This document shows, piece after piece, positions 992 to 35,038 of a stretch of 64,000 bases of DNA. Made by a program: the position numbers and the translations under genes. The DNA is taken from NCBI RefSeq assembly GCF_031583575.1, contig NZ_CP134146.1, positions 620,001-684,000 of the forward strand. Direction: 5' to 3'. The notes under the pieces are model-generated. The model was not told the origin of the DNA and made no database searches. It saw nothing but the letters and a program-made list of their open reading frames with translations. Numbering within the stretch: position 1 is the first letter of the stretch; the number at the start of each line of letters is the position of its first letter. Source of the stretch: Thalassotalea nanhaiensis (GTDB lineage: Bacteria > Pseudomonadota > Gammaproteobacteria > Enterobacterales > Alteromonadaceae).

Positions 992-1051
992 TCCAAACTA
1001 AAACATAAAATCCTTTTATTCAGGTATGATTTATATTATAAATGGTGTTAT

Positions 1052-1696: not shown

Positions 1697-1737
1697 AACT
1701 AAAAACAAACTTAAAAGAGAATTTTCAGGGGAAAATT

Positions 1738-3300
1738 ATGAACTTATCAACACTAGACATTTCAGTCTTCGTGTTTTATGTGATTGCACTTATTGCAATT
1801 GCTTATATGGTTTCAAGAGAAAAAGTGGGCCATGAGAAAAATTCGAATGATTATTTTTTAGCAGGTAATTCATTACCTTGGTGGGCCGTTGGTGCTTCAC
1901 TAATTGCGGCAAATATATCTGCTGAACAGATTATTGGTATGTCGGGCTCTGGCTACAAAATTGGTTTAGCAATCGCTTCTTATGAGTGGATGGCAGCTAT
2001 CACTTTAATGATAGTTGGTAAGTATTTTTTACCAATTTTCCTCGAGAAAAAAATCTACACTATGCCGCAGTTTCTAGAACAGCGCTTTGACCATCGTGTA
2101 AGAACAGTAATGGCGGTATTCTGGCTAGGGGTTTATGTATTTGTAAACTTAACTGCTATTTTATGGTTAGGGGCTTTAGCAATTAACACCATTACCGGTG
2201 TAGATGTTGTTTATGGCATGATCTTCCTTGGTGGTTTCTCAGTAGCTTACTCTCTTTATGGTGGCTTAAAGGCAGTAGCCTTTACCGATATTATTCAAGT
2301 GGTGTTATTAGTATTAGGCGGCTTGTTCTTATCTTATATTGCTTTAGATTTGATTGGCGAAGGACAAGGCCTAATAGCTGGTTTTAATAACTTAGTAGCG
2401 CAAGCGCCAGAAAAGTTTGACATGATTTTAGCCAAAGACAGTGAGCACTATATGGACCTTCCTGGTTTGTCTGTTCTTGTTGGTGGCATGTGGATCATGA
2501 ACCTGTCGTATTGGGGGTTTAACCAATACATTATTCAACGTACGTTAGCCGCAAAAGATCTACGTGAAGGCCAAAAGGGTATCGCTTTTGCCGCATTTTT
2601 AAAACTATTAATGCCAGTAATTGTTGTATTACCAGGCATTGCAGCTGTGTTACTAGTACCTGATTTACACAAACCTGACCAAGCATATCCAGCATTATTG
2701 AATTTGATGCCAGAAGGCTTAAAAGGATTAGTTTTTGCAGCATTAGTTGCAGCAATAGTTTCTTCACTAGCGTCAATGACAAACTCAATCGCAACTATTT
2801 TTACCATGGATTTATATAAAAATGATAAGAAACCTCGTAGTGAAGAGCATTACGTAAAAGTTGGACGCATTGTGAGCTTAGGCGCTCTAGTTATTGCAAT
2901 GATAGTGGCTAAGCCATTACTTGGTCAATTTGATCAGGCTTTCCAATATATTCAAGAGTTTACTGGCTTCTTTACACCAGGTATAGTTGCGCTATTCTTC
3001 TTAGGTATGTTCTGGAAAACAACTACTGCAAATGGAGCTTTAGTTGCAGCTTTAGGTTCTGCACTATTTTCGTTTATATTTTGGATGATTTGGCCTGAAT
3101 TACCATTTATGGACCGTGTGGGTTTAGTGTTTGTACTTTGTACATCGCTCGCCGTTATTGTTTCCCTTTTAGAAAAGAAAGGTGAGCATGACAATGCAGT
3201 TGACCTGAAAGGAATGGACTTTAGCACATCAAAAGGATTTAACATTTCAACAGTCGCTGTTTGTTTAATCTTAATAGGCTTCTACTCTGCTTGGTGGTAA
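1738..3300 (+). CDS. Sodium/solute symporter (SSS family), sugar transporter
   Basis: 520 aa inner-membrane protein of the sodium:solute symporter family (SglT-like). It is rich in long hydrophobic segments, about 13-14 predicted by eye. Family landmarks include the N-terminal DYFLAGNSLPWWAVGASL region (about 38-55), the ANISAEQIIGMSGSGY segment (58-73), and the YSLYGGLKAVAFTDIIQ block (171-187). Its place between dgoA and an SMP-30 lactonase suggests uptake of galactose or an anhydrogalactose-type sugar from the periplasm, driven by sodium, which suits a marine bacterium. The start at 1738 follows an AGGGGAAAAT ribosome-binding region. The next gene begins 6 bp after the stop, so the two are probably co-transcribed. 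Confidence 0.9.
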   Translation: MNLSTLDISVFVFYVIALIAIAYMVSREKVGHEKNSNDYFLAGNSLPWWAVGASLIAANISAEQIIGMSGSGYKIGLAIASYEWMAAITLMIVGKYFLPIFLEKKIYTMPQFLEQRFDHRVRTVMAVFWLGVYVFVNLTAILWLGALAINTITGVDVVYGMIFLGGFSVAYSLYGGLKAVAFTDIIQVVLLVLGGLFLSYIALDLIGEGQGLIAGFNNLVAQAPEKFDMILAKDSEHYMDLPGLSVLVGGMWIMNLSYWGFNQYIIQRTLAAKDLREGQKGIAFAAFLKLLMPVIVVLPGIAAVLLVPDLHKPDQAYPALLNLMPEGLKGLVFAALVAAIVSSLASMTNSIATIFTMDLYKNDKKPRSEEHYVKVGRIVSLGALVIAMIVAKPLLGQFDQAFQYIQEFTGFFTPGIVALFFLGMFWKTTTANGALVAALGSALFSFIFWMIWPELPFMDRVGLVFVLCTSLAVIVSLLEKKGEHDNAVDLKGMDFSTSKGFNISTVAVCLILIGFYSAWW

Positions 3301-3306
3301 TAAGCT

Positions 3307-4206
3307 ATGTCAAAAGTAACAATCGGTAACTTACTCAAAGTTATCGACGTTACAAATACATTAGGTGAGGGCGTGCAATGGCACGCCCTTAGCCGTTGTA
3401 TTTGGTGGACCGATATCGAAGGCTCTAGCCTTTATTGTTACTGCACTAAAACAAACCAATTAACCAGATTTCAAATGCCTGACCGAGTAGGCTGCTTTGC
3501 TTTTATTAAAAATGATAAAAGGCTGATCGTTGCTTTCGCTAATGGTTTAGCTTTTTATGATTTTGAAAGTGAAGCGATTGAATGGCTAGATAAACCTGAA
3601 CAGCATATTCCCGGAAATCGGTTTAATGATGGGCGAGTTGATCGACAAGGTCGATTTTGGCCTGGTAGCATGGTTGAAACCCAATCAGCTAGCAATCAAT
3701 TAGCACATTTATATATGGTAAATAAAGAGCTTAAATGCCAACCAAAGATAAGTGATATTGAAATATCTAATGGTCTTTGTTGGAGTCCTGACGGAACTAA
3801 GCTTTATCATGCTGATTCACCAAAACAACAATTATTTCAATATGATTTCAATGTTGATACTGGTGAAATCTCAAATAAAAGGCTTTTCGTTACAACAGCT
3901 GAGAATTCATATCCAGATGGTTCAACGGTAGATGCACAGGGGTTTATTTGGAATGCTCAATGGGGAGGCTCTAGAGTTGTTCGTTATAATACTGATGGGC
4001 AAGTAGATATTGAACTTAGCTTGCCAGTTTCACAGCCTAGTTGTGTTGCTATTGGGGGGCCAAATCTTGATTGGCTAATCATAACTTCTGCTCGCCAAGA
4101 TTTATCAGCAGAGCAATTATTAACTGAACCACAAGCCGGTAATGTGTTTATTTATCAGCTTGATGGCGTACAAGGGCTTGAAGAAAACCAATACGTCTTA
4201 CCATAA
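3307..4206 (+). CDS. SMP-30/gluconolactonase family sugar lactonase
   Basis: 299 aa six-bladed beta-propeller lactonase. Residues matching the divalent-metal ligands of SMP-30 are in place: Glu21 (LGEGVQW), Asn155 (SNGLCWSPDG) and Asp204 (YPDGSTVD), with the substrate-side NRFNDGR at 104-110. There is no signal peptide, so it acts in the cytoplasm. It starts 6 bp after the symporter and belongs to the same operon. The likely role is hydrolysis of an aldonolactone such as galactonolactone made by the upstream dehydrogenase. Related enzymes act on glucono-, arabino-, fucono- and xylonolactones, so the sugar is inferred from context only. Confidence 0.88.
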   Translation: MSKVTIGNLLKVIDVTNTLGEGVQWHALSRCIWWTDIEGSSLYCYCTKTNQLTRFQMPDRVGCFAFIKNDKRLIVAFANGLAFYDFESEAIEWLDKPEQHIPGNRFNDGRVDRQGRFWPGSMVETQSASNQLAHLYMVNKELKCQPKISDIEISNGLCWSPDGTKLYHADSPKQQLFQYDFNVDTGEISNKRLFVTTAENSYPDGSTVDAQGFIWNAQWGGSRVVRYNTDGQVDIELSLPVSQPSCVAIGGPNLDWLIITSARQDLSAEQLLTEPQAGNVFIYQLDGVQGLEENQYVLP

Positions 4207-4236
4207 ATCCTCATCAGACAATGATGATTAAATTAT
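4207..4236 (+). terminator. Weak hairpin after the lactonase gene
   Basis: TCATCA (4211-4216) and TGATGA (4222-4227) form a six-base stem with a five-base loop, followed by an AT-rich stretch ending in TTTTT. The stem is short and weak. It may mark the end of the dgoK-dgoA-symporter-lactonase operon, but read-through into the epimerase gene is possible. Confidence 0.3.
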
Positions 4237-4321
4237 TTTTGGGTTAAATGCAATGCAGAGTTGCATAACCAAGAAACAAACGTTAATCTAATAATATGAT
4301 AAATAGTATTATAGATACTTG

Positions 4322-5200
4322 ATGAAGATAATAATAAAAGATAGTAAAAGTGAAGTGGTTATTGCACCTGAACTTGGTGCAAGTATCTTAGCTTATGACT
4401 ACATTACAAATGATAATCGATTTTCTATTTTCCCAAATAGGCTTGGTGCTGTAGATGTTACCAGCACAGCATGCTTTCCGTTAGTACCATTTTCAAACCG
4501 CATTCGAGAAGGCAAATTCTTCTGGCAAGGTGAACAAATTCAATTGCCATTAAATCAACTTCCAGAGCGGCATACAAACCATGGTCATGGGTGGCAAGTG
4601 GCTTGGAATGTTGACGAGCAAACTGAAAGTAGCTTGACCCTAAGCTATGTGCATACCGCTAATGAATGGCCTTTTTCGTACAAGTCGATATATCGTTTTG
4701 AATTGCAAAACGGAGAGCTGTTACAAACGTTAATCTTGAAAAACCTTAGCCCAAATGAGATGCCAGCGGGTCTTGGTTTGCATCCATACTTTTCCCGTAC
4801 TGCTCAAGCCACGCTTAAAGCTGATGTTAAACAAATGTGGCAGGTAGATAATGAATCCATGCCCGTTACCGTGATAGATGCACCTAAGTGCTTACAATCT
4901 GCGCAAGGTATGGTGGTTAATGATCATCAGTTGGATAATACATTCATCGATTTTCCTGCTAAAGCAAAAGTGTGCTGGCCTGAATGGCAAATGTGTGCAG
5001 AAGTTAGTGCATCTACTAACTGCAAATTTATGGTTGTTTATAGCCCTGAAAAGCAGGATTTCTTTTGTGTTGAGCCTGTTACTCATGCTCCAAATGCAAT
5101 AAATAAGCATCAACGAGGCATTGAAAATACCGGATTTTCAAGTCTGAAGTCACAACAAGAAATGACTGTTTGGATGCGCGTATCACCTAAACCAGTTTAA
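4322..5200 (+). CDS. Aldose 1-epimerase (galactose mutarotase-like)
   Basis: About 292 aa, cytoplasmic, of the galactose mutarotase-like beta-sandwich fold. Recognisable blocks are LVPFSNRIREGKF (about 58-70), the first catalytic-type His in the HTNHGHGWQ segment (about 91-99), GLHPYFSR (about 152-159) and the FCVEPVTHAPNA block, whose Glu matches the catalytic base. It interconverts alpha and beta anomers of aldoses. A TTG three bases upstream is in frame, but the ATG at 4322 is the better start. It follows the lactonase by 115 bp with its own AT-rich upstream region, including a copy of a recurrent motif at 4291-4310. In context it would feed the right galactose anomer to a dehydrogenase. 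Confidence 0.88.
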   Translation: MKIIIKDSKSEVVIAPELGASILAYDYITNDNRFSIFPNRLGAVDVTSTACFPLVPFSNRIREGKFFWQGEQIQLPLNQLPERHTNHGHGWQVAWNVDEQTESSLTLSYVHTANEWPFSYKSIYRFELQNGELLQTLILKNLSPNEMPAGLGLHPYFSRTAQATLKADVKQMWQVDNESMPVTVIDAPKCLQSAQGMVVNDHQLDNTFIDFPAKAKVCWPEWQMCAEVSASTNCKFMVVYSPEKQDFFCVEPVTHAPNAINKHQRGIENTGFSSLKSQQEMTVWMRVSPKPV

Positions 5201-5216
5201 TACTCTTTCGTTTCAA

Positions 5217-7292
5217 TTATTGCTGTAAGCGATACTTGTACATATGATAATTTGTCCTACGTACATACTCTAACAACTGATAATAAGGCCTGTCAGAAGA
5301 AGAGACTAAACCGGCATTAGCATTTTCCCCAACGACACTTCGACCAGCCGTTGTCGAGTCGGCCCACATAAACCAATGAGCACCGACATTTTTGGGGTCA
5401 CGCATCGAGCTTTCTACAAAGTTTTGATATTTTTCACCTCTGTTACGCTGATCTGATGCATGGCCAAGTCCTGGATAGAATTTACCTGAATCGACAGCAC
5501 CAAAGTTGAATTCAGAAATTAAGTAAGGTTTGTCTATATTAACCATTTCTGCAATGCTGTTTTCTAACATTTCGTTATCGTATTGATTAAATGAAATAAC
5601 ATCTAAATATTGTGCGCCAATGCTTACATTGTAGTGGTTTCGATGATCGGCATTTACGTGCCAGCGACAACCTAAATACAATTTATTAGGTGCGTGATTT
5701 TTTATTGCTTTAGAAATGGTACTGAAGTATTTGTGGCTCATTTTCTGATAAAAGGCAATGTTTGCTTGTTCAAGCATTGTTATGTTTTTTAAAGGAAATT
5801 CTTGTTTATTCGCCTTAAGAGCAGACCAATTCGTAAATGAACTTCCTAGGCGTTTATTTACTTCATCAAGAGTCTTGTATATATCTTTAACAATATCTAC
5901 ATACTGGTGCTTAGCAGAGCTGTTTTTAGGCTTTTTAATCAATTCTTTTGCCAAGGTATTTGGGCTTTTCCAATACAACTCGTTATCAATAAAAAAACCG
6001 ATAAAAAATGGATCATCTTTTATCGCTGTCGACGCCTGTTTTACTCGCTTGTTTACACTCTTGGCAAAATTTGGAGAGAATACATCCGGAAACTTACTGG
6101 TTATCCCTGGGTTTCCCCAAATTGTAGATAGTGTCTTTGTATATGGAATTCTATTTTGCTCACTTACAAGTGCGCCCTTATTGCTAAAGCCGGCTACCGT
6201 ATTTAACCCCCAGCTGTGCATTCGAGTGGCAGAAAATTGCGCATACTTTGATTCATCATTATGGCCATATTTGCGAAACATATTTAACTTACCGAAATCG
6301 AACTCGCCATTTTTCTGATAAAACTGACCATACTTGGCATCATTTTTCTTAGGAAGAAACTCGAAAAAGTTCTCACGGCCTGTTACTGGTGTACCCACAT
6401 GCAATTGCAGAGCACTATTCACCCCTATAGACCAGAATAAATAGCCGTTAGGATCAACAAACCACCATTTACCCTGATGTTTCTCTACACGAAAGTGCCC
6501 ACTTGCAGTTAGTTTCGGACCAAATTTACTCCACTCTTTGGAGCCAGTATGTAAGTTTAAGTCGACTTGTTCATCTTTAAGTTCTTGCTTAAGTTGTGCA
6601 TCTGTTAGTGTTTTACCTAGCCAAGTTTCATGTTTGTATTGGCCAAACCTGTCAATAAATGGAAAAAATTTCTCTTTGTTAGTTGTATATAGCTGAGCAA
6701 ATGCTGGGCGCTTTAAACTCATTTTTTTTAATAAAATAGTTTGCGAAAAAGACTGGGCAGGTAAGGTAAGTTTAATTTGATTAGTTAACGCTAAATCAAA
6801 ACTATTAGTGAATGATATTGCGGTTGGCATGCCGCGAGTGTTCGGAAAATCCTCGCTCATCGCTGCATAGGTTGTTTTTCTAGTCGAATAATCAGGAAGT
6901 AGTAAATTGTTAAATAAGCGTACTTCTTTAGCCTCAAGCCAACCAATAGCATGTATTGGTTTAGTAAACTTTCTTCCTTTTACCTTGCCTAAGATATAGC
7001 TATCGAAGCGCAGGCGCTGGTCAGTTTTATTTTCTAAATCTAGCGTTAAGTAGAGCCATTGATGTATATCCCAATTTCCCGAAAATGAAATGCTGGCCTT
7101 CTCATTGGCTTTAACCTCGATAAGTAAACCATCTTCACTGTAAGTAATGTTGCCGCCAGAGTGAGTTATTTCATTTTTCGGTATTGCTTTGCGAAAGTCT
7201 ACGAGGACTTTAGGTTCAGCATTTTCAGCAGCATTACAGCCCAACAATATAGATAAATATAAAATAAAAATCGCGCTGAATTTGGCCTTCAT
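5217..7292 (-). CDS. GH50-like (beta-agarase family) lipoprotein glycoside hydrolase
   Basis: 691 aa with a lipobox ending at Cys19 (SILLGC), so probably anchored in an outer membrane leaflet. An N-terminal beta-rich region (about 25-200) is followed by a TIM-barrel domain of the GH50 type: GHFRVEKHQGKWWFVDPNGYLFW near 265-287, then IDNELYW with the proposed acid/base Glu438, and SEFNFGAVDSG with the proposed nucleophile Glu594. The C-terminal block GAHWFMWADSTTAGR plus GENANAGLV also matches GH50 agarases. Known GH50 members are exo- or endo-beta-agarases. In this carrageenan-leaning locus the true substrate may be another beta-1,4-galactan. A paralogue is at 55728-57815. Confidence 0.8.
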   Translation of the reverse strand: MKAKFSAIFILYLSILLGCNAAENAEPKVLVDFRKAIPKNEITHSGGNITYSEDGLLIEVKANEKASISFSGNWDIHQWLYLTLDLENKTDQRLRFDSYILGKVKGRKFTKPIHAIGWLEAKEVRLFNNLLLPDYSTRKTTYAAMSEDFPNTRGMPTAISFTNSFDLALTNQIKLTLPAQSFSQTILLKKMSLKRPAFAQLYTTNKEKFFPFIDRFGQYKHETWLGKTLTDAQLKQELKDEQVDLNLHTGSKEWSKFGPKLTASGHFRVEKHQGKWWFVDPNGYLFWSIGVNSALQLHVGTPVTGRENFFEFLPKKNDAKYGQFYQKNGEFDFGKLNMFRKYGHNDESKYAQFSATRMHSWGLNTVAGFSNKGALVSEQNRIPYTKTLSTIWGNPGITSKFPDVFSPNFAKSVNKRVKQASTAIKDDPFFIGFFIDNELYWKSPNTLAKELIKKPKNSSAKHQYVDIVKDIYKTLDEVNKRLGSSFTNWSALKANKQEFPLKNITMLEQANIAFYQKMSHKYFSTISKAIKNHAPNKLYLGCRWHVNADHRNHYNVSIGAQYLDVISFNQYDNEMLENSIAEMVNIDKPYLISEFNFGAVDSGKFYPGLGHASDQRNRGEKYQNFVESSMRDPKNVGAHWFMWADSTTAGRSVVGENANAGLVSSSDRPYYQLLEYVRRTNYHMYKYRLQQ

Positions 7293-7511
7293 AATTGTCC
7301 TTTGACGATAATATTTGTCAGTTTATGCAAATTGTTCTTCCAAATTGTAGTAAAGTACTATATATAATACAATACAGATTAATAAATATGATGAATAAAG
7401 TATAACTACACTCTTTTCATCAACTGGGTATACGTCCCTGGAAGTTATAAGGTAAGAGCACCGCTATTTACGAATATGAATGTAATAAAACTATTGTTGG
7501 GGAAAGTATAG

Positions 7512-8474
7512 GTGAATGTTGAATATGTCATAGTTGCAGATTGGGGCAGTAGTCATTTGCGTGCCTATTTATGCCAACTTAATCAGCAAGGCACTTTAAC
7601 AGTAATAAAATCTGCCAAAGGAACAGGTGTAACGAAGATTGAAGAACAATTTGAGCAGCACCTTATGCAGGTTATAGCGCCATGGCGGAAAGAGTTTGGA
7701 CAAATGCCAATTCTCTTATCTGGCCAAGTAGGGTCAACCTTAGGCTGGAAAGAAGCACCGTATTTACCTTGTCCAGTTTCTCTTGATCGACTAGCAACCT
7801 CTTGTTTAACGTTTATATGTAGGGGCCACCCTATATACATCGTTCCCGGGCTAAGTTGTGAAATTCCTGATAAACACTCTGATGTAATGCGCGGCGAAGA
7901 ATTACAAGTATTAGGCTTGTTACTTAAACATGAAAAGTATCAACAAGGTCGTCAGCTTATTTGCTTACCTGGTACGCATACTAAATGGGTACTGGTTGAC
8001 AATGGCGAAATACAATTCTTTAAAACCGCAATGACCGGCGAGCTGTACGATCTGCTTACCAGTAAAAGTGTCTTAATTCAAAAGAAAACAAACATTTTTG
8101 ATGCAGACGCATTCAAGCTTGGCGTTGATAAAGCCAATTCAAGCAGCGTCGGTAGCTTTAGTCACAATATTTTTAGTGTGCGTACGAAGCAACTTTTTGG
8201 CGAGTTAAATCAAGGTAATGCATGCTCTTATTTATCTGGACTACTTATTGGTAGTGATGTACATGCTGCCATCGCGACTGAGCAATGGAATATCTCTGAT
8301 ATTACCGAAGTTGTCATCGTTGGAGATGAACATTTAAGCACTTGCTTTGCAATGGCGCTTGAATCGCAAGGTGTACAGACGCGTGTTGTTGATGAGGCCG
8401 AAGTTGCCATCGCCGGCTATTCAGGGATATGTAATAGTTTATTTTTAAAAGATTTAACGCAAACAGCAATATAA
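7512..8474 (+). CDS. dgoK: 2-dehydro-3-deoxygalactonokinase, second copy
   Basis: 320 aa paralogue of the kinase at 38-991, with the same blocks: ADWGSSHLRAYLC near residues 8-20, MRGEELQVLG, and LPGTHTKWV followed by GEIQFFKTAMTGELYDLL. It should also phosphorylate KDGal. The start is GTG at 7512, preceded by a good TTGGGGAAAG ribosome-binding region; no better ATG lies nearby. It is divergent from the GH50-like gene and is followed 73 bp later by a sulfatase, so here a cytoplasmic kinase leads a run of periplasmic enzymes. The stop lies in an ATAAAA hexamer repeat (about 8471-8490) that supplies several in-frame stops. Confidence 0.92.
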   Translation: MNVEYVIVADWGSSHLRAYLCQLNQQGTLTVIKSAKGTGVTKIEEQFEQHLMQVIAPWRKEFGQMPILLSGQVGSTLGWKEAPYLPCPVSLDRLATSCLTFICRGHPIYIVPGLSCEIPDKHSDVMRGEELQVLGLLLKHEKYQQGRQLICLPGTHTKWVLVDNGEIQFFKTAMTGELYDLLTSKSVLIQKKTNIFDADAFKLGVDKANSSSVGSFSHNIFSVRTKQLFGELNQGNACSYLSGLLIGSDVHAAIATEQWNISDITEVVIVGDEHLSTCFAMALESQGVQTRVVDEAEVAIAGYSGICNSLFLKDLTQTAI

Positions 8475-24631: not shown

Positions 24632-27556
24632 TTAACGATTGGTGATATAACTTAGGATGTTTATCAATAGCGTATCAGCTACCGGGTCTTTACCTAGGTT
24701 TGGCACAATCTGCATTGTCGATAAAATTAACTTACCTTTACCAAAATCAACTTCCGATAAATCAGACCCAACCCAAACATCACCCGTACCTTTATAATGG
24801 CGCTTCATCAGGGTCATATCAGGGAAATTATCATTAGCAACAAGCGTAACAATTGGCTTGGCTTTTAAATCGACCATACTAATTTTAGGGCGTACATTTT
24901 CATATATGCCTTGCATAGCTTTGTTAACTGGAAGGTTATTAAATACAGGGTGATCGCTAACAACATGACTCATGCCAGCCCATAAACCTGTCGATGCCTT
25001 CATCTTGATAGATAATGGCATATGTACTGCAGAGCCTTTACTTAACACACCACTTTTCCATTTAGGGCCAATATATGGGAACTGAATATAGGTAACAATT
25101 CCACCTTTGTTAGCAAACGCTTTTAATTGCTTGTTAAGCGTTTTTTGCTTTTTGTTAGGCTTGCTTGCCATTGCAACAACTACTGGAGTATCAATGCTGG
25201 TGTTGTCATTAAAATCACTAAATGAAATTTGGTTATCGCTTAAGAATGCGCGTAAATTACCGGTTTGATCGGCAAGGGCAAAAGTGCCAATGTTGTTATC
25301 CTTACTGGTAGCAAACACGTTAAAATCATAGGTATAGTCAGCGATGGTGTTACCATGTTTATCGGTAACTTTGGCATCAACAATATACTTGCCTGAGAGA
25401 GTACTAGTGTCGATACTGTGTTCTAGTAAGGTTGATATGCGCGCTGCAAAGTTGATTTCTTTTTTGCTTTGCCAAACTTGTTTACCAGCTGAGTCACTAA
25501 CAACTACATGTAATGTGCCTTTTACCGATTTTAAATCGTTGACGCCTTGCACTAATACCTCAACGTTTTCACCTGCATATGCGCTATATGGAAATGTTCT
25601 GATTGATAAAATACGCGGTTGGTTTGCTGCCTTTGTACGCTCATATACTTGTGGTTTGGGATCGCGCCATAAATCTAATAAACCAGCACCCATGATCCAG
25701 TCACCGCCAGTTAAGGCGTGCACACAATAGCCGGTAACATTTGGATTTAAGCGAGTTGCTTCAATCATGCGGGCATTGGCTTTACCATGAATTTCTTGTT
25801 GTTCAGTGAAGAATTCTTGTGGCGTCTTATAAATGTCAGCAAGGTCAGATTGCAATACCTTGTTTAATTGGCTGCCAAGTTGTTTGTGATAGCGAGTTGG
25901 CGGCACAATAGGGTTGCCTTGTTCACTAAACCGTTTATTTACCTTGTCAAAATCAACATAACTGCCATAGCCAAGCTCAGACACAAATGAAGTAACACCG
26001 GGTTTTAAATTATGGCCGATTGGCTTGCCTTTGATACCAAATGCTTCACGTTCTTCCTTGGTGTAACCCACGCCTAAAAATTTATCAAACCATGCGTTGG
26101 TCATGTTAGGGCCAGGGTAGGTATGGACATCGTTAAAACTAACAAAGTTTTTCTCATTTGGTAAAAATACTTTAGCACCAAATGCCCAGCCACCAGACTC
26201 ATCTAAAATTAAACGACTTGGGTCTAAATCACGAGCCATCATTGATGTTTCTTGCATCATTTGTTTTAAAATAGGACGTCTTACTTCGTTATATAACTCC
26301 CACATTACAATACTGGCACGGTTACGATCACGCTTGATTGTTTTACCAATTTCACTAACAACTCGCTTAGGTAAATCTGGTGTATTTACCGGTAAATCCA
26401 TACACTCGAGCGCAGGAGAACCAATTACCAAAACGCCCATTTCGTCAGCCAAATCTAGCCACTGAGGAGGTGGTGGACGTCGCCATGGACGGATCATATT
26501 AAAGCCAGCTTCTTTAGCTAGTTTGATTTCTTTTCTTGCTAATTCCATATCAACAGGTGTTGCTACACCTACCGGATAAACGCCTTCTAAGAACACTGAT
26601 TTAACGTAAATTTCATCACCATTTAAATGGAAACGTTTATCTTTTACGGTAAATTCACGCAAGCCGAAGCGCTCGCTAACGCTGTCACTTAAGGCATTGT
26701 TTCGATTAATATTAACTCTAATATCATAAAGGTTCGGGCTATCTGGCGACCATGCTTTGGCATTGGGAATTACAATGTCTGTGGTTAAGCTGTTTTTACC
26801 AGGGGTGAAGGTTGTGTTAATTTGCTTGGTAACAATTAACTTGTCTGACTGATGCTCTCTAATTTCAATATCGACGATATTTTCACTGTCATAAACATCA
26901 TAATTAGTGGCAGAAACAGTAACATTGGCAGACTGATTTGCTAAATCTGGTTGCACATAAACATCGCTTATATACGATTTGTCAGTAACAACAACACGTA
27001 CTGATTGCCAAATTCCACCGGTAATACCGCCACGCCATTGTGGTGTTTCCATTGCACCCATGCCATCAATTACTTTGTCGGTATCAAGTAAAATAGGACC
27101 AAGTACCCGTAAAGTTAATACGTTTTCTTTATCAAAATTCAACATAGAATCAACGCGAAAACTAAATGGTGTAAAACCACCTTCATGCACACCAACTACA
27201 TGGTCGTTTAAGTATACTTCGGCACGATAATTGACCGCATCAAAGGAGATATGAGCAATTTTATTTTGCCATTCTATAGGAGCATTGAAAGTACGGCGAT
27301 AAACGGCAACACCCTCATAGTCTTTTTCAATTCTCTCCCAAACACTTGGTACTTCAATGTTACGAATATCTTTATGTGCTAAAAAGTTACTGTTTTTATA
27401 GGTTTTGTTGGCTCTACTTTGATTATCTTTATCAAAAATTATTTGCCAAGTACCATCAAGAGACAGGGTGTTTTGATGACTTTTTTGTGCGTAAACAGTG
27501 GTGTTGCCAACAATAGTAAGTGTTAATAGCAAAACCATCTTGAGTATATGTTTCAC
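24632..27556 (-). CDS. GH2 family glycoside hydrolase, large, secreted
   Basis: 974 aa with a signal peptide (cut after VYAQ, residue 24). A jelly-roll sugar-binding domain (about 30-200) and an Ig-like domain lead to a TIM barrel with acid/base Glu424 (ELYNEVRRP) and nucleophile Glu527 (VSELGYGSY). After the barrel come another Ig-like segment (about 650-750) and a C-terminal alpha/beta-looking region (about 780-970, with KAFANKGGIVTYIQFP) that resembles a glutamine-amidotransferase or trimerisation-type fold and is unusual for GH2. It starts 26 bp after the aldehyde dehydrogenase stop (minus strand), so a periplasmic hydrolase is co-transcribed with cytoplasmic anhydrosugar genes. Confidence 0.87.
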   Translation of the reverse strand: MKHILKMVLLLTLTIVGNTTVYAQKSHQNTLSLDGTWQIIFDKDNQSRANKTYKNSNFLAHKDIRNIEVPSVWERIEKDYEGVAVYRRTFNAPIEWQNKIAHISFDAVNYRAEVYLNDHVVGVHEGGFTPFSFRVDSMLNFDKENVLTLRVLGPILLDTDKVIDGMGAMETPQWRGGITGGIWQSVRVVVTDKSYISDVYVQPDLANQSANVTVSATNYDVYDSENIVDIEIREHQSDKLIVTKQINTTFTPGKNSLTTDIVIPNAKAWSPDSPNLYDIRVNINRNNALSDSVSERFGLREFTVKDKRFHLNGDEIYVKSVFLEGVYPVGVATPVDMELARKEIKLAKEAGFNMIRPWRRPPPPQWLDLADEMGVLVIGSPALECMDLPVNTPDLPKRVVSEIGKTIKRDRNRASIVMWELYNEVRRPILKQMMQETSMMARDLDPSRLILDESGGWAFGAKVFLPNEKNFVSFNDVHTYPGPNMTNAWFDKFLGVGYTKEEREAFGIKGKPIGHNLKPGVTSFVSELGYGSYVDFDKVNKRFSEQGNPIVPPTRYHKQLGSQLNKVLQSDLADIYKTPQEFFTEQQEIHGKANARMIEATRLNPNVTGYCVHALTGGDWIMGAGLLDLWRDPKPQVYERTKAANQPRILSIRTFPYSAYAGENVEVLVQGVNDLKSVKGTLHVVVSDSAGKQVWQSKKEINFAARISTLLEHSIDTSTLSGKYIVDAKVTDKHGNTIADYTYDFNVFATSKDNNIGTFALADQTGNLRAFLSDNQISFSDFNDNTSIDTPVVVAMASKPNKKQKTLNKQLKAFANKGGIVTYIQFPYIGPKWKSGVLSKGSAVHMPLSIKMKASTGLWAGMSHVVSDHPVFNNLPVNKAMQGIYENVRPKISMVDLKAKPIVTLVANDNFPDMTLMKRHYKGTGDVWVGSDLSEVDFGKGKLILSTMQIVPNLGKDPVADTLLINILSYITNR

Positions 27557-27582: not shown

Positions 27583-29019
27583 TTAATCGTTAACTAATAC
27601 GGATACACGTTTTAAGGTCATGTACTCTTCTAAGCTATAATGTGAGCAATCTTTGCCTACACCACTTTGCTTTAAACCACCATGTGGTAGTGATACGTCA
27701 TAGTGCACTTCATTTACACAAACGCTGCCTGCTTGTATTTGACTTGCCGCTTGTAAGCCACGCTGTAAATTGCTGGTAAATACATAGGCCGCTAAGCCAT
27801 ATTCGGTATCATTTGCCATCGCAATTACATCATCACTGTCTGAGTATTTAATCACGGGTAATACTGGGCCAAAAATCTCATCACATGCTAATGGCATACA
27901 AGGGTCAACATCGGCCAAAATAGTTGGCTCAAGATAGTAGCCTTTGGCCATTGATTGTGGGATTTTTCCTCCTAAAATCAGTCGGGCACCTTTATCAATA
28001 GCATCTTTGACGTTTGTTAGTACTCGCTCACGAGCTTGTGCGGTTAGCATAGGACCCATCAAGTTTCCATCGCTTCTACCTGTACCAAAGACTAAATCTT
28101 GTGCTTGTATTTTCGCTTTATCAATAAACTCGTCATACACTGATTCATGCACAAAACAACGATTTGGTGATACACAAACTTGCCCTGAATTAGCAAACTT
28201 AAGGCCAACAATATTTGCTACGGCTTTGTCGACATCTGCATCGTCATAAACCACAACAGGCGAGTTACCACCAAGTTCAACAGAGAAATGTTTAATGTTT
28301 GTACTGGCAGTGTGCATTGCGCCAACACCAGCTTTAGTTGACCCAATCATGGTAAACATGGTGGTTTTATCTGAAGTTAATAATGGGTCGGTAATATCGT
28401 ATCTATCACCTGAAATCACGTTAATAACTCCGGCAGGTATGCCAGCCTCAATAGAAAGCTCTGCACAACGAAGCGTTGCCAGTGGCGTTAACTGCGATGG
28501 TTTGATTATTGCGGTACAACCAGATGCCAAAACAGGCCCTAGCTTGTAACCTAGATTTAGTAATGGAAAATTCCAGGCTAAATATCCGACAACAACGCCT
28601 AGTGGCTGGCGCATCATATAATTTAGAAAACGGCCGTTAGGATCGGCAATTATCGGTTGGTCGATACGCTTTGCTTCTTCAAGAAAAAAGCGTAAGCAAG
28701 TAGTGAGCATGTCAAAGTCATATTCTGCATTATCGGCAGGTTTACCGGTCTCTTCAACCAATAAATCAACGATTTCATCTCGATGTTTTTCTAAAATATT
28801 TGCATAGTTTAAAATTATTTCACTGCGCTCTGCCAATGTCATTTTTGACCACGTGCTAAACGCGCTGTCGGCGCTGTCTAGTGCTGTCTGAATTTGTTCT
28901 GGTTCCACTTGAGGAGCAGTTGCAATTACCTCTTCAGTTGCAGGGTTAATCACATTTAGGCTATCTTTTGCAGTGACCAATTCACCATTGATCAGCATTT
29001 TGTATTGTTTGTTACTCAT
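27583..29019 (-). CDS. NAD(P)-dependent aldehyde dehydrogenase, candidate 3,6-anhydrogalactose dehydrogenase
   Basis: 478 aa ALDH-superfamily enzyme of normal length, cytoplasmic. The general base is Glu248 (VELGGNSP), the catalytic Cys is Cys282 (NSGQVCVSPNR), and cofactor-binding WNFP (149-152) and IKPS (172-175) are intact. Its start overlaps the stop of the cycloisomerase gene by four bases (ATGA). That coupling with a Gci-like cycloisomerase matches the known anhydrogalactose pathway: oxidation of the aldehyde of 3,6-anhydro-D-galactose, then ring opening to KDGal. The dgoK and dgoA genes in the window supply the next steps. Other aldehydes such as lactaldehyde remain possible. Confidence 0.85.
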   Translation of the reverse strand: MSNKQYKMLINGELVTAKDSLNVINPATEEVIATAPQVEPEQIQTALDSADSAFSTWSKMTLAERSEIILNYANILEKHRDEIVDLLVEETGKPADNAEYDFDMLTTCLRFFLEEAKRIDQPIIADPNGRFLNYMMRQPLGVVVGYLAWNFPLLNLGYKLGPVLASGCTAIIKPSQLTPLATLRCAELSIEAGIPAGVINVISGDRYDITDPLLTSDKTTMFTMIGSTKAGVGAMHTASTNIKHFSVELGGNSPVVVYDDADVDKAVANIVGLKFANSGQVCVSPNRCFVHESVYDEFIDKAKIQAQDLVFGTGRSDGNLMGPMLTAQARERVLTNVKDAIDKGARLILGGKIPQSMAKGYYLEPTILADVDPCMPLACDEIFGPVLPVIKYSDSDDVIAMANDTEYGLAAYVFTSNLQRGLQAASQIQAGSVCVNEVHYDVSLPHGGLKQSGVGKDCSHYSLEEYMTLKRVSVLVND

Positions 29020-30167
29020 CGTGTTTCCGTATTATTAATATCAAATTGTTTTATTGCATTTAAATCAATGTTTACCCCTAAACCCGGAGCGGTAGGAACA
29101 CTGGCTTGGCCACCTTCAATGTGAACAGCAACACTGTACAATTCATCACGCAATGGATTTTCGGTACGATCGTATTCAAGCATTAATTGCTTTTCTTCTG
29201 CTCTGCCAGGTTCGTGGTATGCACTTGCTAAAAAGTGCGTCGCTGCTGCCAGGTTGAGCTGAGTTCCCCAAACGTGAGGTACACAGTTAATGCCATTAGC
29301 AGAAGCTAATGTACGTATTTTTAATGCTTCACTTGGACCACCACAATAGGCAAGATCTGGTTGTAAAAGAGTCACTCCTCCTGATGCTATTAGCTTTTGA
29401 AAACCAAATCGTGTTTGTTCACACTCCCCGGTCGCGATCGCAAGGTCGAGTTTATTATGGAGTTGTTGAAATAGAGGCAAATGCTCAGGCGATAAGGGCT
29501 CTTCAAACCAGTCATAGTCATGTTTATCTAATAAACGACCAATGCGAATTGCTTCAGGTAAATCATAGGCATGATTAGAGTCAGCCATTAACGTTGTGTT
29601 TGGAAGAGCTTCGCGCATGGCAGTAATAAGCTGTTGATCAAAATCAGGATTTTTTCCGACCTTAATTTTCATCGCTTTAAAGCCTTCATCAGCATAGCCT
29701 TTAGCTTCTTCAACTAATAAGGGCAGTAATGCATCTTCTGTTAAGTCCTGATAATACATACCGGTAGCATAACAAGGGATGAAATCGCGTTGTCGTCCGC
29801 CCATTAACTCACTAACGCTTAATCCGAGTGCCTTGCCTTTAAGATCCCATAACGCCATATCAATACCTGACATGGCGCCCATCATTATTCCTGCTCTGGC
29901 AAAATCTAAGCTTGAACGCCACATGTGTTGCCATATAGCATCCGTAGCATAAGCATCCATGCCAATAATGCGAGGTGCATAAAAGTTATTTACTGCAGAC
30001 TGTGTAACATCAGCTGGGCCATAACATTCCCCCCAGCCTGATATGCCAGTATCAGTGATAATCTCAATAACTAACACGTTGCGTTGATCATAAGACCATT
30101 GGGAGAAGCCAAAAGGCTTCTCTAAATGACACCTAAGGTGATGACTGCGAATACATACTATTTTCAT
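29016..30167 (-). CDS. Enolase-superfamily cycloisomerase (Gci-like), candidate 3,6-anhydrogalactonate cycloisomerase
   Basis: 383 aa member of the mandelate racemase/muconate-lactonising group. The Lys-x-Lys pair is Lys167/Lys169, metal ligands are Asp196, Glu222 and Glu248, and the His is in VPHVWGTQ (His298). The N-terminal WGECYGPA, SGIDMALWDLKGK and PHVWGT blocks strongly recall D-galactarolactone cycloisomerase (Gci), so ring opening fits better than dehydration by DgoD. The proposed reaction is 3,6-anhydro-D-galactonate to 2-keto-3-deoxy-galactonate. It is translationally coupled to the aldehyde dehydrogenase and lies 11 bp after the transporter gene. A sugar-acid dehydratase function is the main alternative. 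Confidence 0.83.
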   Translation of the reverse strand: MKIVCIRSHHLRCHLEKPFGFSQWSYDQRNVLVIEIITDTGISGWGECYGPADVTQSAVNNFYAPRIIGMDAYATDAIWQHMWRSSLDFARAGIMMGAMSGIDMALWDLKGKALGLSVSELMGGRQRDFIPCYATGMYYQDLTEDALLPLLVEEAKGYADEGFKAMKIKVGKNPDFDQQLITAMREALPNTTLMADSNHAYDLPEAIRIGRLLDKHDYDWFEEPLSPEHLPLFQQLHNKLDLAIATGECEQTRFGFQKLIASGGVTLLQPDLAYCGGPSEALKIRTLASANGINCVPHVWGTQLNLAAATHFLASAYHEPGRAEEKQLMLEYDRTENPLRDELYSVAVHIEGGQASVPTAPGLGVNIDLNAIKQFDINNTETR

Positions 30168-30178
30168 TTAAGCGCTAC

Positions 30179-31276
30179 CTAACTTTTAATGGTTACGGTA
30201 GTGTCTTCAAAAATATTATATTCAACATTGTTCACGCTAGTTTGTGGTTGTTCAATTGAATTTGAATAACCTAATAAGCAAATGGCGCTGATTAAAATAA
30301 CAATACCGGTCGCCATAGTCTTAAATGGGCCTGGTGCACCTTTCCACTCGCCAGTGTATATACCTATAACGGTTGAGATAATAAGTGCTAAACCAAGCAA
30401 CATAGGCCAACCAATTACCGGACCAATATCTCCCATAAGCGCTGCACCTTGTCCGTAAACGCCTAAAGCGGCGAACCACAATAAGCCGGCAATCACCGCC
30501 CATTTATATGCTTTACCTGATTCGGCAACACCAAACGAACTCCAGGATTTATTTTTAAATAATAAAAATATGGCGAATCCTGCGTTCATTGCATAAGCAC
30601 CAATTAATACAACAACCCAGCGTGCAAGGGCGGTATTTCTAGTTACCGCACCAGCTTCTTCCGCTGCTGCGCCAATCGCTTCTGTTGCTGAAAAGCCAAC
30701 ATTTAACAGTGATGACAAAATACCACAGGCAATTGCTATCATTAGTCCTTTTTTAAAGGCTGCACCGGTTTGGATACCGGCAATTTCAACACCTGACTCA
30801 GCTAAAACTTTATCGCGGTTGATCCCTGCCTTTGCAACTATGGCAACAGCAATAAGCATGATCACCATACCTGTTAAAATAAAAGGAATAGCTGAGTTTG
30901 CACTCATGTTATTTAGTTGCATTAGTGGTATTAACGACCCCATCAAGGCAGCAAGTCCCATAACAATACCCATAGTTAATGCAACACCGATATAAGGCAC
31001 ACAAACACCAAACATTATGCCGCCTATACCCCAAAGGAAACCGTATAGAGCACCTTCTTGAATAGCTGAAGCTGGTGATGCAGCTATGACCGTAAATAAA
31101 TCTGGAACTACAATAAATGCCCAAATCCCAGGGAAAATAATCATCGCGATAGTTACGTGTACTAACCACCAAGCTTCCCATGCGAGCGGTTTAGTGTATT
31201 TCATGCCAAGGCCAAATGTGCCTTGGAAAACGCTGGCCAGTAATACCAGTAATAGTGGAAACATAATTTCAATCAT
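30179..31276 (-). CDS. RhaT-like sugar/proton symporter
   Basis: 365 aa inner-membrane protein with about ten hydrophobic segments. The N-terminal FQGTFGLGMKYTKPLAWEAWW stretch (starting at about residue 18) is characteristic of the L-rhamnose/H+ symporter (RhaT) family. It leads directly (11 bp) into the cycloisomerase and aldehyde dehydrogenase genes. The transported sugar is therefore more likely 3,6-anhydrogalactose than rhamnose, but the GH78-like gene just across the divergent region keeps rhamnose open. No rhamnose isomerase, kinase or aldolase gene is in the window. Confidence 0.82.
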   Translation of the reverse strand: MIEIMFPLLLVLLASVFQGTFGLGMKYTKPLAWEAWWLVHVTIAMIIFPGIWAFIVVPDLFTVIAASPASAIQEGALYGFLWGIGGIMFGVCVPYIGVALTMGIVMGLAALMGSLIPLMQLNNMSANSAIPFILTGMVIMLIAVAIVAKAGINRDKVLAESGVEIAGIQTGAAFKKGLMIAIACGILSSLLNVGFSATEAIGAAAEEAGAVTRNTALARWVVVLIGAYAMNAGFAIFLLFKNKSWSSFGVAESGKAYKWAVIAGLLWFAALGVYGQGAALMGDIGPVIGWPMLLGLALIISTVIGIYTGEWKGAPGPFKTMATGIVILISAICLLGYSNSIEQPQTSVNNVEYNIFEDTTVTIKS

Positions 31277-31322: not shown

Positions 31323-31622
31323 TTAAAAATCTACTATTTGCTCGTCTTCAGTAACTGACTGAATGTAAGCAACAACCGCATCGTGTTCTGGATAAACACA
31401 ATAGGCCTTAAAATCTTCTTCATTATCAAAAGTTGAGAATAGGCCCACATCAAAAAACTGAGCGCCATAGCTACCAATATTGATACCAACATCATATTGG
31501 CGAACTTCTTTTATTAGCGCAGGTAAGCTGTCAAGTTTGGCTTTAACAGTTATTGCTAGCTGATCTTTGCTTTGTCCGTCGGCTTGCTCTTTTAATTTCC
31601 ATAACACTAAATGTCTGTACAT
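31323..31622 (-). CDS. Dabb (stress-responsive A/B-barrel) domain protein
   Basis: 99 aa. MYRHLVLWKLKEQADG at the start and an aromatic/acidic C-terminus (YCVYPEHDAVVAYI) are typical of Dabb ferredoxin-like dimers. The ATG at 31622 is chosen over a TTG 12 bases upstream because GAGG lies six bases before it. It comes first among the intact genes of the minus-strand run that includes the transporter, cycloisomerase and dehydrogenase. Dabb proteins often sit in sugar-catabolic operons as mutarotase- or cyclase-like enzymes; the reaction here is unknown. Confidence 0.8.
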   Translation of the reverse strand: MYRHLVLWKLKEQADGQSKDQLAITVKAKLDSLPALIKEVRQYDVGINIGSYGAQFFDVGLFSTFDNEEDFKAYCVYPEHDAVVAYIQSVTEDEQIVDF

Positions 31623-31661
31623 GGTTATCCTCAAAAATTCGTTGTTGTCTGTTGAAACTTC

Positions 31662-31995
31662 TTATTGTTTTGGTCCTAATGATAAAGCTTGCAATGCATT
31701 GGCCTTGGCCACTTGCATTGCTTCAGCTGTTGCTAGTCGGGCAGCTTCGCCATCTCTTGCTTTTAATGCATCAAGACTTTTGGGGTAATAGATTGAGCAG
31801 CCTCATCTGCGGCATAACTTTCTAGAGCTTCACGCACACCGTACCTTTGTGTTAACTCTTGGCTATCTGGCCTGTGCACTACCGCGCCAAACCTTGGGCT
31901 ATAATCGAGCATGCCTTCAATTTCCATTTGCCTTATCGTTTCTCTGATTGGCGTTCGGCTCATGCCCAACTTTTAATTAATGCCTCAACCTTTAA
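31662..31995 (-). pseudogene. Decayed GntR/FCD (FadR-type) transcriptional regulator
   Basis: Three pieces of one regulator can be read on the minus strand. A fragment LKVEALIK (about 31995-31971) runs out of frame into the winged-helix piece LGMSRTPIRETIRQMEIEG, which continues through the first FCD helix (RYGVREALESYAADEAA) until a stop at about 31763. A third piece in another frame, SLDALKARDGEAARL to ALQALSLGPKQ and TAA at 31662, matches the C-terminal FCD helices. About 90-100 residues of the middle FCD domain are missing. It therefore carries at least one frameshift and one internal deletion and cannot make a normal sensor. It heads the anhydrosugar operon. Confidence 0.82.
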
Positions 31996-32033
31996 CTAAC
32001 GTGCTCTTTAGATGCCACAAATCAATTGTTAAT

Positions 32034-32058
32034 GGCCTGTATACAATGTATACAAGCC
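32034..32058. promoter_or_regulatory. 25-bp palindrome, candidate GntR-family operator
   Basis: The two half-sites GGCcTGTATACA and TGTATACAaGCC are separated by one base. The dyad is perfect except for the centre and one position in each arm, and holds two GTATAC cores (32039-32044 and 32048-32053). GTATAC-type dyads are typical of FadR-type GntR regulators such as UxuR and LldR. It lies between the decayed regulator with its operon on the left and the GH78-like gene, 60 bp away, on the right, so it could control both directions. Confidence 0.6.
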
Positions 32059-32118
32059 ATTACTTTTATGCAAGAATAAATATGATTTATACGATTATCT
32101 TGTGGGTTTATAACAATA

Positions 32119-34662
32119 ATGACTGTTTCAAAGCTAACTCTATTACTGCCGCTTTTTCTAATTTCACAACTTTGCAACGCAGTTTCAGTACAAGAATCTG
32201 CATTAAATAATGGTGTTATTGGCGAGTGGCAAGCGAACCATGTTGAAACCAATAAAGATTGGCAAGCGGCTTGGATATGGCATGAAAAAGGCAGTAACAA
32301 CAACTTAATGTTGTTTCGAAAGTCATTCACATTAACTGGTGACGCGGTGAATGCAGTATTGAAAATTACAGCCAGTAGCGTTTATAAACTTTATGTAAAT
32401 GGAGAGTATGTTAATAGAGGCCCTGCTCGAAGCGCACCTCATCATCAATCATTTGATCAGTTAAATATTAGCTCTTTGTTACAGCTAGGAAAAAATACGT
32501 TGGCTATTCAAGTGCATGCGCAAGACATGCTTAACAGTTATGCCTCCCCCGGGCGTGCCGGCTTGCTGGCAGAGCTTTTACTAAATGACAAGATACTCGT
32601 TAAAACCGACGCAAGCTGGAAAGTAAGTAAAGATCCTAGTTGGCGTGACAATAGCCCCAAGATGAGTCGTTTTCATCAAGAAGTAAACGACAGTGTTGAC
32701 CTGAGACTCGCACTGCATGACTGGCAAAGCTTAGAATTTAACGACAGTGATTGGCAAAATGCCACTGAGCTGATGCGTAATAATGGCTGGCCTACGGCCC
32801 AAAAGAATGACAGTGCACATGCAATAACACCGCCGTGGGTTTCATTGGTCAAACGCGATATACAGTATTTAAAAGAACAAAGCCTGACAGCCAAAAAACT
32901 AGTGTCGGCACAATACATTGATGATTATTTTACGAGTAAAATATCTTTTCCTAAAAAAATAAAAAGCATTCCAAAAGTCTCACTCGAACGAGACAATAAA
33001 GCGCTACAATTTTCAACGTATCCCATTAACTTAGAGTCGTCAGATAAACCATTGTTATTGGTATTCGATTTAGGTGAAGTTAAAAATGGTTTGCCTGAAT
33101 TTACTATTAAAGGCAGCGCTGGCGATAAGGTAGAGGTGATTGCCATACCATATATGATAAACAGCAAATTTACCTATCATATGGTTGATGCAAATTTAAT
33201 TGACCGTGTTGTGCTGTCAGGAAAAACAGATTATTGGCAGGCGCAATATTTTAAGCCGACACGTTATTTGGGGATTGTGGTAAAACCAAGTAATACAATG
33301 GAAATTAGTCATTTTGGATTGCACCAATTAAGTTTTGAACTGCATGAACAAAGCAGTATCAAGTCAGCTTCAGCTACTTGGATAACTGACTATGTTAATG
33401 CCAGTAAAAAGACAATCAAAGTCGCAACCACAGATGCTTATACCGATAATTATCGTGAGCGTCGTCAATATGCGCAAACGGGTTTTTATGCAGCCCTTGG
33501 CAATTATTACACGTTTGCCAACCACACGTTACAACGTCGATATTTAATCCAAACAGCACAGGAACAAATGGCAAACGGCTTAATGCCTGCTTATGGCCCG
33601 TTACAAACAGATGATTATATGGTGATTTTGGATTCTAATAGTTTGTGGATCCGCAGCTTAAAAAACTATTTCCTATATTCAGGTGATAAAAATACTGTAC
33701 TGCAATTGATGCCGGCAGCTACAAAAATGATGGCATTGTTAAACTCTTTTACCAATTCAGATGGTCTAATTGACAATCCTCCTTATGCCTATTGGCTTGA
33801 TCATGCTAAAAATGATCGACGCGGTGCTAACTTAAATCTCAATGGTCATTATTTAGGTGCTTTAGAGGATTTTGTTGAGCTGAACGCTTGGTTAGGTATC
33901 AGTGATGTGAGGCAATATGGAGAACAAGCAAAGAGAGTTCGCACTGCAATAAATACAAAGTTTTGGAATGAAGATAAGGGTTTATTTGTTGATGCCTTAA
34001 TTGATGGTGAACAGTCTAATCAATATAGCGAACATGCCAACGCGATGGCTTTGGCACTTAATATTGCAACTAAACAACAAGCTGACATGGTGATAAAAAC
34101 CTTACTTGATGATACGCCTGATAATTATATTACTCGTGCCAATGGCATGACTATGGTTACGCCTGCAATGAGTTACTTTTTACATAAAGGTATTGCTAAT
34201 TATGGCTATATCGATGAGTCGTTTGCGTTAATGCGTAAGCGTTTTGATAAAATGCTAGCACCGCAATATAACGGTACATTATGGGAAGAGTGGTGGCTGG
34301 ATGGCACAGGACGTTCAGGTACATTTATAAATAATGGCCGTACTCGCTCAGATGCACAAACTGAAAGCGCCTTTGCTCCCGCGCTATTTGCGGAATACTT
34401 GCTTGGCATAAAGCCTATTGAACCAGGCATGAGAACCATTACTTTAGCAAAGCGTAAGCACAGTATTTCTAATATGGAGGGGACTGTTGCAACCCCTTAT
34501 GGTCTATTAAAAATTCAATGGCAATATACCACCCCTAAGCAACAAGCTTTACTTATTGATGTACCAAATGGCGTAATCATTAAGCTAGACCGGCACAGTC
34601 TAGGTTTTAACGGTGAACAATATCAACAAATTAACTCAGGTACTCATCATATTGAGTTTTAA
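32119..34662 (+). CDS. GH78-like alpha-L-rhamnosidase family protein (secreted)
   Basis: 847 aa with a signal peptide (cut near CNA, residue 21). The N-terminal beta domain (WIWHEKGSNNNLMLFRKSF, then YKLYVNGEYVNRGPAR near 89-104) is the accessory jelly roll of bacterial rhamnosidases. The catalytic (alpha/alpha)6 barrel begins near residue 420, with TDNYRERRQYAQTG at about 441-454 holding the probable acid and GTLWEEWW near 720 the second acidic residue. The motif differs from classical GH78 (D-x-R-x-E-R), so specificity may be altered. It is the first plus-strand gene after the palindrome. Rhamnose is not a component of carrageenan or agar, so the substrate is uncertain. Confidence 0.75.
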   Translation: MTVSKLTLLLPLFLISQLCNAVSVQESALNNGVIGEWQANHVETNKDWQAAWIWHEKGSNNNLMLFRKSFTLTGDAVNAVLKITASSVYKLYVNGEYVNRGPARSAPHHQSFDQLNISSLLQLGKNTLAIQVHAQDMLNSYASPGRAGLLAELLLNDKILVKTDASWKVSKDPSWRDNSPKMSRFHQEVNDSVDLRLALHDWQSLEFNDSDWQNATELMRNNGWPTAQKNDSAHAITPPWVSLVKRDIQYLKEQSLTAKKLVSAQYIDDYFTSKISFPKKIKSIPKVSLERDNKALQFSTYPINLESSDKPLLLVFDLGEVKNGLPEFTIKGSAGDKVEVIAIPYMINSKFTYHMVDANLIDRVVLSGKTDYWQAQYFKPTRYLGIVVKPSNTMEISHFGLHQLSFELHEQSSIKSASATWITDYVNASKKTIKVATTDAYTDNYRERRQYAQTGFYAALGNYYTFANHTLQRRYLIQTAQEQMANGLMPAYGPLQTDDYMVILDSNSLWIRSLKNYFLYSGDKNTVLQLMPAATKMMALLNSFTNSDGLIDNPPYAYWLDHAKNDRRGANLNLNGHYLGALEDFVELNAWLGISDVRQYGEQAKRVRTAINTKFWNEDKGLFVDALIDGEQSNQYSEHANAMALALNIATKQQADMVIKTLLDDTPDNYITRANGMTMVTPAMSYFLHKGIANYGYIDESFALMRKRFDKMLAPQYNGTLWEEWWLDGTGRSGTFINNGRTRSDAQTESAFAPALFAEYLLGIKPIEPGMRTITLAKRKHSISNMEGTVATPYGLLKIQWQYTTPKQQALLIDVPNGVIIKLDRHSLGFNGEQYQQINSGTHHIEF

Positions 34663-34723: not shown

Positions 34724-35038
34724 ATGAAAACAATAATAACGATAGCAACAGTTGCAATTCTAGCATCAACAACGTGTCAAGCTGGGCAAGATAACAGCAA
34801 TATAACTGATTGGCAAAAGACGCGTTTTAAGCAATTAGACCTTGATAACAATGGTTCATTAAATGTAGAAGAGATGCGTGGAACGACCAAAGAATGGATG
34901 ACGAAAGCTGGCTTTGATGAAGCGGAGCAAGTTAAACGAACGAGTAAAAAATTAGCAAAATTAGATACAAATAAAGATAAGTCAATTTCTTTAGATGAAT
35001 TTGCTGCTGATCATAATAAACAAAAAAAGAAAAAGTAA
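34724..35038 (+). CDS. Small periplasmic EF-hand protein, paralogue
   Basis: 104 aa with a signal peptide cut after CQA (residue 20). EF loop 1 is at 39-50 (D-L-D-N-N-G-S-L-N-V-E-E) and is canonical. Loop 2 at 81-92 (D-T-N-K-D-K-S-I-S-L-D-E) has Lys at position 6, where Gly is usual, which may weaken it. The C-terminus is a Lys-rich tail, as in the paralogue at 10010. A strong AGGAGG site precedes the start, suggesting high expression. It is followed by a hairpin and a lipoprotein sulfatase, the same order as at 10010-11978. Confidence 0.85.
   Translation: MKTIITIATVAILASTTCQAGQDNSNITDWQKTRFKQLDLDNNGSLNVEEMRGTTKEWMTKAGFDEAEQVKRTSKKLAKLDTNKDKSISLDEFAADHNKQKKKK

Follow-up and report, generated by a model that had tools for sequence, protein, structure and literature searches.

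The window is the whole stretch of DNA analysed (64,000 nucleotides, positions 620001-684000 of a one-contig 4.31-Mb genome with a completeness of 99.99%). Between a divergent GH78-like gene and a putative anhydrogalactose operon, it most probably carries a recently inactivated local VanR-like GntR/FCD regulator lying beside its own operator, with derepression of the operon as the predicted outcome. The regulator gene is split, shortened and scrambled. Two genomes of the same genus (G002 and G009) encode an intact regulator at the equivalent place (228 and 230 aa, respectively). The palindrome next to it is found in these three genomes alone among 395 genomes of the family, and the neighbouring genes are intact.

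Locus and gene content

The features of the locus are listed in Table 1. Gene order is common to G002, G009 and the window: GH78-like gene, divergent regulator, Dabb, RhaT-like symporter, cycloisomerase, aldehyde dehydrogenase, GH2. The five genes from Dabb to GH2, which would form a single operon, encode proteins 79-89% identical to those of G002 (70% for the GH78-like gene).

Table 1. Features of the locus (window coordinates)
Feature	Position	Strand	Basis or remark
Glycoside hydrolase family 2-like protein, intact	24632..27556	-	Pfam
Aldehyde dehydrogenase, DauA-like by context, intact	27583..29019	-	Pfam Aldedh
DauB-like 3,6-anhydro-D-galactonate cycloisomerase, intact	29016..30167	-	Top PDB match 5olc
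RhaT-like sugar/proton symporter, intact	30179..31276	-	Pfam RhaT 6.5e-23; NCBIfam RhaT matches below cut-off
Dabb-domain protein, intact	31323..31634	-	Pfam Dabb 5.3e-20
GntR/FCD regulator remnant (pseudogene)	31662..32015 (upper limit approximate)	-	Alignment to intact G002 and G009 orthologs, same place
Piece B of remnant, other frame: last FCD helix	31683..31775, reading on to stop ending at 31662	-	
Piece A of remnant, 65 codons: recognition helix, wing, first FCD residues	31778..31972	-	83% identical to G002 regulator
Apparent imperfect 19-bp tandem duplication, LAKKLGM-coding stretch	31962..31998	-	Local alignment
Full window dyad, 16-nt arms	32030..32062	.	Outer 6 nt asymmetric in G002 and G009
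Candidate operator core, conserved: CTTGTATACA-N-TGTATACAAG	32036..32056	.	Two TGTATACA units; one private window change
Promoter-like pair TTGCAT (32073-32068) N17 TACATT (32050-32045)	32045..32073	-	By eye, letters checked
GH78-like (alpha-L-rhamnosidase-like) gene, divergent, intact	32119..34662	+	Pfam Bac_rhamnosid models

PDB entry 5olc, the nearest to the cycloisomerase, is DauB of Zobellia, described in excerpts of PMC5698469 as acting on 3,6-anhydro-D-galactonate. As in a dau operon, the DauB-like cycloisomerase adjoins an aldehyde dehydrogenase; the two are paired in 25 of the 28 loci listed (four genomes appear twice). A D- rather than an L-anhydrosugar is the putative substrate, assigned by sequence. 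The cycloisomerase is present in 4/15 genomes of the genus and 23/395 of the family (window genome counted in both). In a third congener (G010), the enzyme pair was the only match to the queries in the stretch fetched.

The window (1-64000) contains many sulfatase-like genes plus GH2-, GH29-, GH95- and agarase-like proteins, that is, a very large seaweed-polysaccharide cluster. The GH78-like gene is separated from a sulfatase-like gene by one for a small EF-hand protein (104 aa, 34724-35038). Among the listed longer ORFs of the window (at least 150-200 aa), inspection by eye revealed no further transcription regulator. No terminator-like site was found in 31600-32200. The Rfam scan of the window gave no match at gathering score, and a known RNA element was rejected on this ground as a reading of the feature.

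The regulator remnant

The remnant lies in two frames of the minus strand (coordinates rechecked), in agreement with the split proposed by the original prediction. The 90-100 FCD residues said to be missing are likewise confirmed: pieces A and B are separated by 2 nt where both intact relatives have 91 codons, so that the FCD domain is incomplete, with a net 271 bp gone and a frameshift. The damage extends beyond the FCD loss described there, as the DNA-binding half is also affected. In the window copy, the first 36-38 codons are for the most part lost or scrambled, the start codon included. As the N-terminal half of the winged helix is thereby largely gone, the DNA-binding domain is broken too. 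Accordingly, the wHTH is incomplete in piece A, which matches positions 34-64 of the 64 of the Pfam GntR profile (2.1e-5, 24.5 bits, under the cut-off of 27). The distance from the dyad core to piece A is 63 nt in the window vs 134 in G002 and 147 in G009. The copies of the apparent duplication (31962-31979 and 31980-31998) align with 16 matches, 2 mismatches and 1 gap. This duplication was spotted post hoc.

The remnant descends from the FCD-type GntR family: its pieces are 75-83% identical to the G002 regulator, and the positional orthologs have intact domains. Alignment to intact FCD regulators of relatives, suggested by the original prediction, is thus provided by G002 and G009. Both of their regulators score above the Pfam cut-offs for GntR and FCD, the FCD matches (77.7 and 76.9 bits) covering nearly the whole profile. 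By sequence, the top PDB relative of the G002 ortholog is 7xp0. The remnant itself is absent from the 14 GntR-domain hits and the nine other FCD hits of its genome. Judged from these lesions, the window copy of the gene is dead.

Searched against the 395 family genomes, the G002 regulator retrieves itself (1.2e-146), its G009 ortholog (2.5e-82, 62% identical) and the window remnant (31760-31978, E 1e-30, 75%, 2 internal stops). The next matches are distant proteins (7e-22 onward, 33% identical). Some match at 1e-5 occurs in 388/395 genomes, as expected for so large a family. Two intact orthologs only were found, and all three loci lie within one genus. A class-wide search at E <= 1e-35 gave no further ortholog in 350 genomes; it had no positive control, and the window remnant itself (1e-30) is above this limit. 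The plasmid collection gave one distant match (36.5%).

The dyad and its putative role as operator

The palindrome, originally described as a near-perfect dyad of 25 bp, is real and near-perfect; its length is 33 bp, of which the inner 21 bp are conserved. The window arms (16 nt, one mismatch, 94% complementary) flank a 1-nt centre. Those of G002 and G009 are perfect over 10 nt, the inner 21 bp alone being common to the relatives. The two TGTATACA units are one base apart (9 bp centre to centre). The window core is identical to that of G009 at 20/21 positions and to that of G002 at 19/21.

At up to one mismatch, TTGTATACANTGTATACAA occurs in 3/395 family genomes, one site each: exact in G002 and G009, with one mismatch in the window genome. 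These are exactly the genomes that have the regulator or its remnant, and the dyad always precedes the regulator, the distance to the start codon being 26 bp in G002 and 33 bp in G009. The reversed control pattern of TTGTATACANTGTATACAA gives a single hit in each of two other genomes. As the dyad occurs at 3/3 regulator loci and in 0/392 other genomes, it is very probably the operator of the lost regulator; the view that it is the right kind of site for this protein is thus upheld. Part of the conservation is due to shared descent, since the three loci belong to one genus. Exact TGTATACANTGTATACA is expected 0.004 times per 4.31 Mb (first-order Markov) and was observed once in the genome. Elsewhere in the window genome, nothing matches the dyad within 2 mismatches; with 3 mismatches, there are 22 others vs 12 control hits. 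One of these weak sites, G000:C1:1776925-1776941 (L017, 3 mismatches), has a regulator gene nearby (L123, 472 aa), whose GntR domain is some 300 bp away; the site may be due to chance, with 12 control hits at this level.

GTATAC is present twice inside the 21-bp dyad, which thus has the GT...AC boxes of a GntR-type operator. Excerpts of PMC4494728 give NyGTM-N0-1-KACNy, with GT...AC boxes, for FadR-type sites and report weaker half-sites 7-12 nt away. The FadR-type label of the original prediction is sustained as regards these boxes; VanR-like may suit better, as Atu1419 is reported to have the same core, TGTATACA (excerpts of PMC7797058). The VanR group is set apart from the FadR group by a C-terminal domain that lacks an extra helix; the label used here is based on the core.

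The six extra symmetric pairs of the window arms have a chance of about 3e-4 at the given base composition (post hoc estimate). A copy-correction event was considered for the longer palindrome; it may instead be ancestral, since the left flank of the G009 dyad resembles that of the window (by eye).

TTGCAT is kept in all three species, and the -10-like TACATT lies inside the dyad, which may therefore overlap a promoter. The promoter-like pair is weak, as an automatic sigma-70-type scan of the region reported no site (shuffles: 1.7 on average).

Predicted regulation and related systems

In the sister species, the intact regulator would bind the double TGTATACA site ahead of its own start codon and block the operon promoter, and would leave the site on sensing an intermediate in the breakdown of 3,6-anhydrogalactose. 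As the window genome would yield no full regulator, the Dabb, symporter, cycloisomerase, dehydrogenase and GH2 genes would be transcribed without a local brake. Constitutive expression of this operon is plausible, and the divergent GH78-like gene is perhaps freed of local repression as well. The window operator may not yet have had time to decay, or may be partly held by the overlapping promoter.

The closest parallel is Atu1419, a VanR-group FCD repressor of Agrobacterium fabrum. According to excerpts of PMC7797058, it has the same order of domains (wHTH, FCD) and the same core site TGTATACA, and binds ATGTATACAT palindromes that either cover -10 boxes or lie between -10 and -35. It is a local repressor of a catabolic cluster, and its sites include its own control region, which has two palindromes. 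Unlike the units of the window dyad (9 bp centre to centre), these palindromes are separated by 190 bp, and Atu1419 forms a tetramer; moreover, the window gene is dead and the partner genes differ.

Other likenesses are by description. DgoR (D-galactonate repressor, FadR family; PMC7674646) is likewise a GntR protein of galactonate/anhydrogalactose breakdown. The carrageenan cluster of Pseudoalteromonas carrageenovora includes a GntR labelled galactonate operon repressor (excerpts of PMC6262041); with a figure legend of PMC5698469, this makes two sources with GntR labels near carrageenan genes, likened here by label. CgrA (AraC-type) of the Zobellia carrageenan regulon also targets a cluster that includes dauA and dauB; in excerpts of PMC5698469 it differs from the lost regulator in being a positive regulator of another protein family. 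The literature search found no paper uniting GntR, operator and TGTATACA, and no description of the lost regulator among the matches listed. The case looks like ordinary regulator decay in a known family, with no new kind of system.

Age of the loss and survival of the dyad

The dN of the remnant vs G002 is 0.112 over the 96 remaining codons. For the five operon genes it is 0.077-0.153 and for the GH78-like gene 0.229, with dS of 1.57 or higher, or saturated. The neighbour-scaled dN expected for an intact regulator (about 0.20) is higher than observed. Measured against G009, the remnant (dN 0.347) and the intact G002 gene (0.346) have diverged alike, so that the remnant has not evolved faster. 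As its protein divergence is the same as that of intact neighbours, the loss looks recent, and the regulator gene probably died late in the lineage. Amino-acid changes among the 96 codons could be polarised to the window side (5) or the G002 side (2), with 9 unresolved. This leans slightly towards relaxed constraint; the lean is not telling, since the intact Dabb shows 7 to 1. The copies of the apparent duplication already differ from each other, which further loosens the dating. With synonymous sites nearly saturated and 96 codons left, the age of the loss is a rough estimate.

One private change is observed in the 21-bp core of the window. With 0.05 neutral changes per site, the expectation is about one change, and at most one has P 0.72; with 0.5 per site, P falls to 0.0003. 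One change in 21 bp fits neutral drift after a recent loss, and the survival of the dyad is thus no argument for a new binder.

Alternative explanations

The original prediction held that, if the site still works, another regulator must bind it. Takeover of the dyad by another regulator of the cell would account for its intactness and is compatible with the death of the local regulator; it is considered unlikely. The near-identity of the core and the longer outer arms of the window speak for it, as does paralog L002 (233 aa), whose recognition-helix core SRTPIREA is the same as in the intact ortholog, so that weak cross-binding is possible. The search for a protein of the same subfamily nevertheless yields poor candidates. 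The genome has nine other FCD-domain hits (eight over cut-off) and 14 GntR-domain hits, mostly the same genes. The nine FCD proteins are 21-36% identical to the G002 regulator (21-28% over long alignments, 32-36% over short ones), and the two best-scoring are about 25% identical. For four of the five other GntR-domain loci (all but L120), the protein was compared as well, the best being 29% identical over 45 residues. TGTATAC is absent from the nine FCD and 14 GntR-domain loci (overlapping sets, 3.1-3.4 kb each). By eye, the palindromes upstream of L001 (TTGGTACTACCAA) and L003 are different. With no second double site within 2 mismatches in the genome and a core change that drift explains, the claim of a necessary new binder is not supported. 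A same-subfamily paralog was rejected as stand-in for the low identities and the absence of TGTATAC at FCD/GntR loci; the comparison covered FCD- and GntR-domain proteins. That the dyad was kept and lengthened to 33 bp (16-nt arms) because another factor now reads the operator, a rewiring within one genus, is more doubtful than takeover as such.

Only slightly less probable than takeover, and still improbable, is that the lost regulator was an activator; the outcome would then be inverted, the operon being silenced (now weakly or never expressed). FCD activators exist, e.g. CitO (PMC4746285), and the Zobellia carrageenan cluster has an activator of another family (excerpts of PMC5698469). The position of the dyad, which is near the start of the regulator gene and covers a -10-like hexamer, would rather suit a repressor, and the operon genes are intact, with low dN. 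It is very improbable that piece A still yields a short protein (68 aa, starting with TTG at 31969) that acts on the dyad. Its ORF (31763-31969) exists and contains the recognition helix and wing, the 65 codons of piece A are stop-free with a normal dN, and GAGG about 13 nt ahead of the TTG makes a weak start possible. Against this, the protein would lack the beginning of the wHTH and almost all of the FCD domain. Close relatives with the short form, which the original prediction named as refuting, were not seen among the listed loci and the listed family matches, and a conserved short form was rejected on this ground. An assembly or sequencing error, the least probable explanation, is rejected, as there are several separate lesions of different type, including the 271-bp loss, in a single-contig genome with intact neighbours. 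A recently inactivated local regulator beside its own operator is thus retained as the preferred reading.

Other FCD regulators of the genome

Upstream of L003, GTCGACA palindromes are repeated before another FCD regulator (by eye); they are probably its own operator. L004, an FCD gene just left of the window, differs from the lost regulator, as its product is 23% identical to the G002 regulator. It is DgoR-like by neighbours only: it adjoins 2-keto-3-deoxygalactonate kinase- and aldolase-like genes (names read from sequence), and may still control later steps of the pathway. Two 2-keto-3-deoxygalactonate kinase-like genes (38-991 and 7512-8474), an aldolase-like gene and the DgoR-like FCD regulator were seen by eye in window 38-8474 and L032 6345-9697, which suggests that the lower anhydrogalactose/galactonate pathway is encoded at the left side of the window too.

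Significance

As a natural example of the loss of a likely repressor, the locus is clean: the catabolic operon is otherwise intact, the sister species supply intact copies for comparison, and one single site is predicted. A preserved palindrome beside a dead regulator need not imply another reader protein. The locus also points to a local regulator of anhydrogalactose use, with a testable operator.
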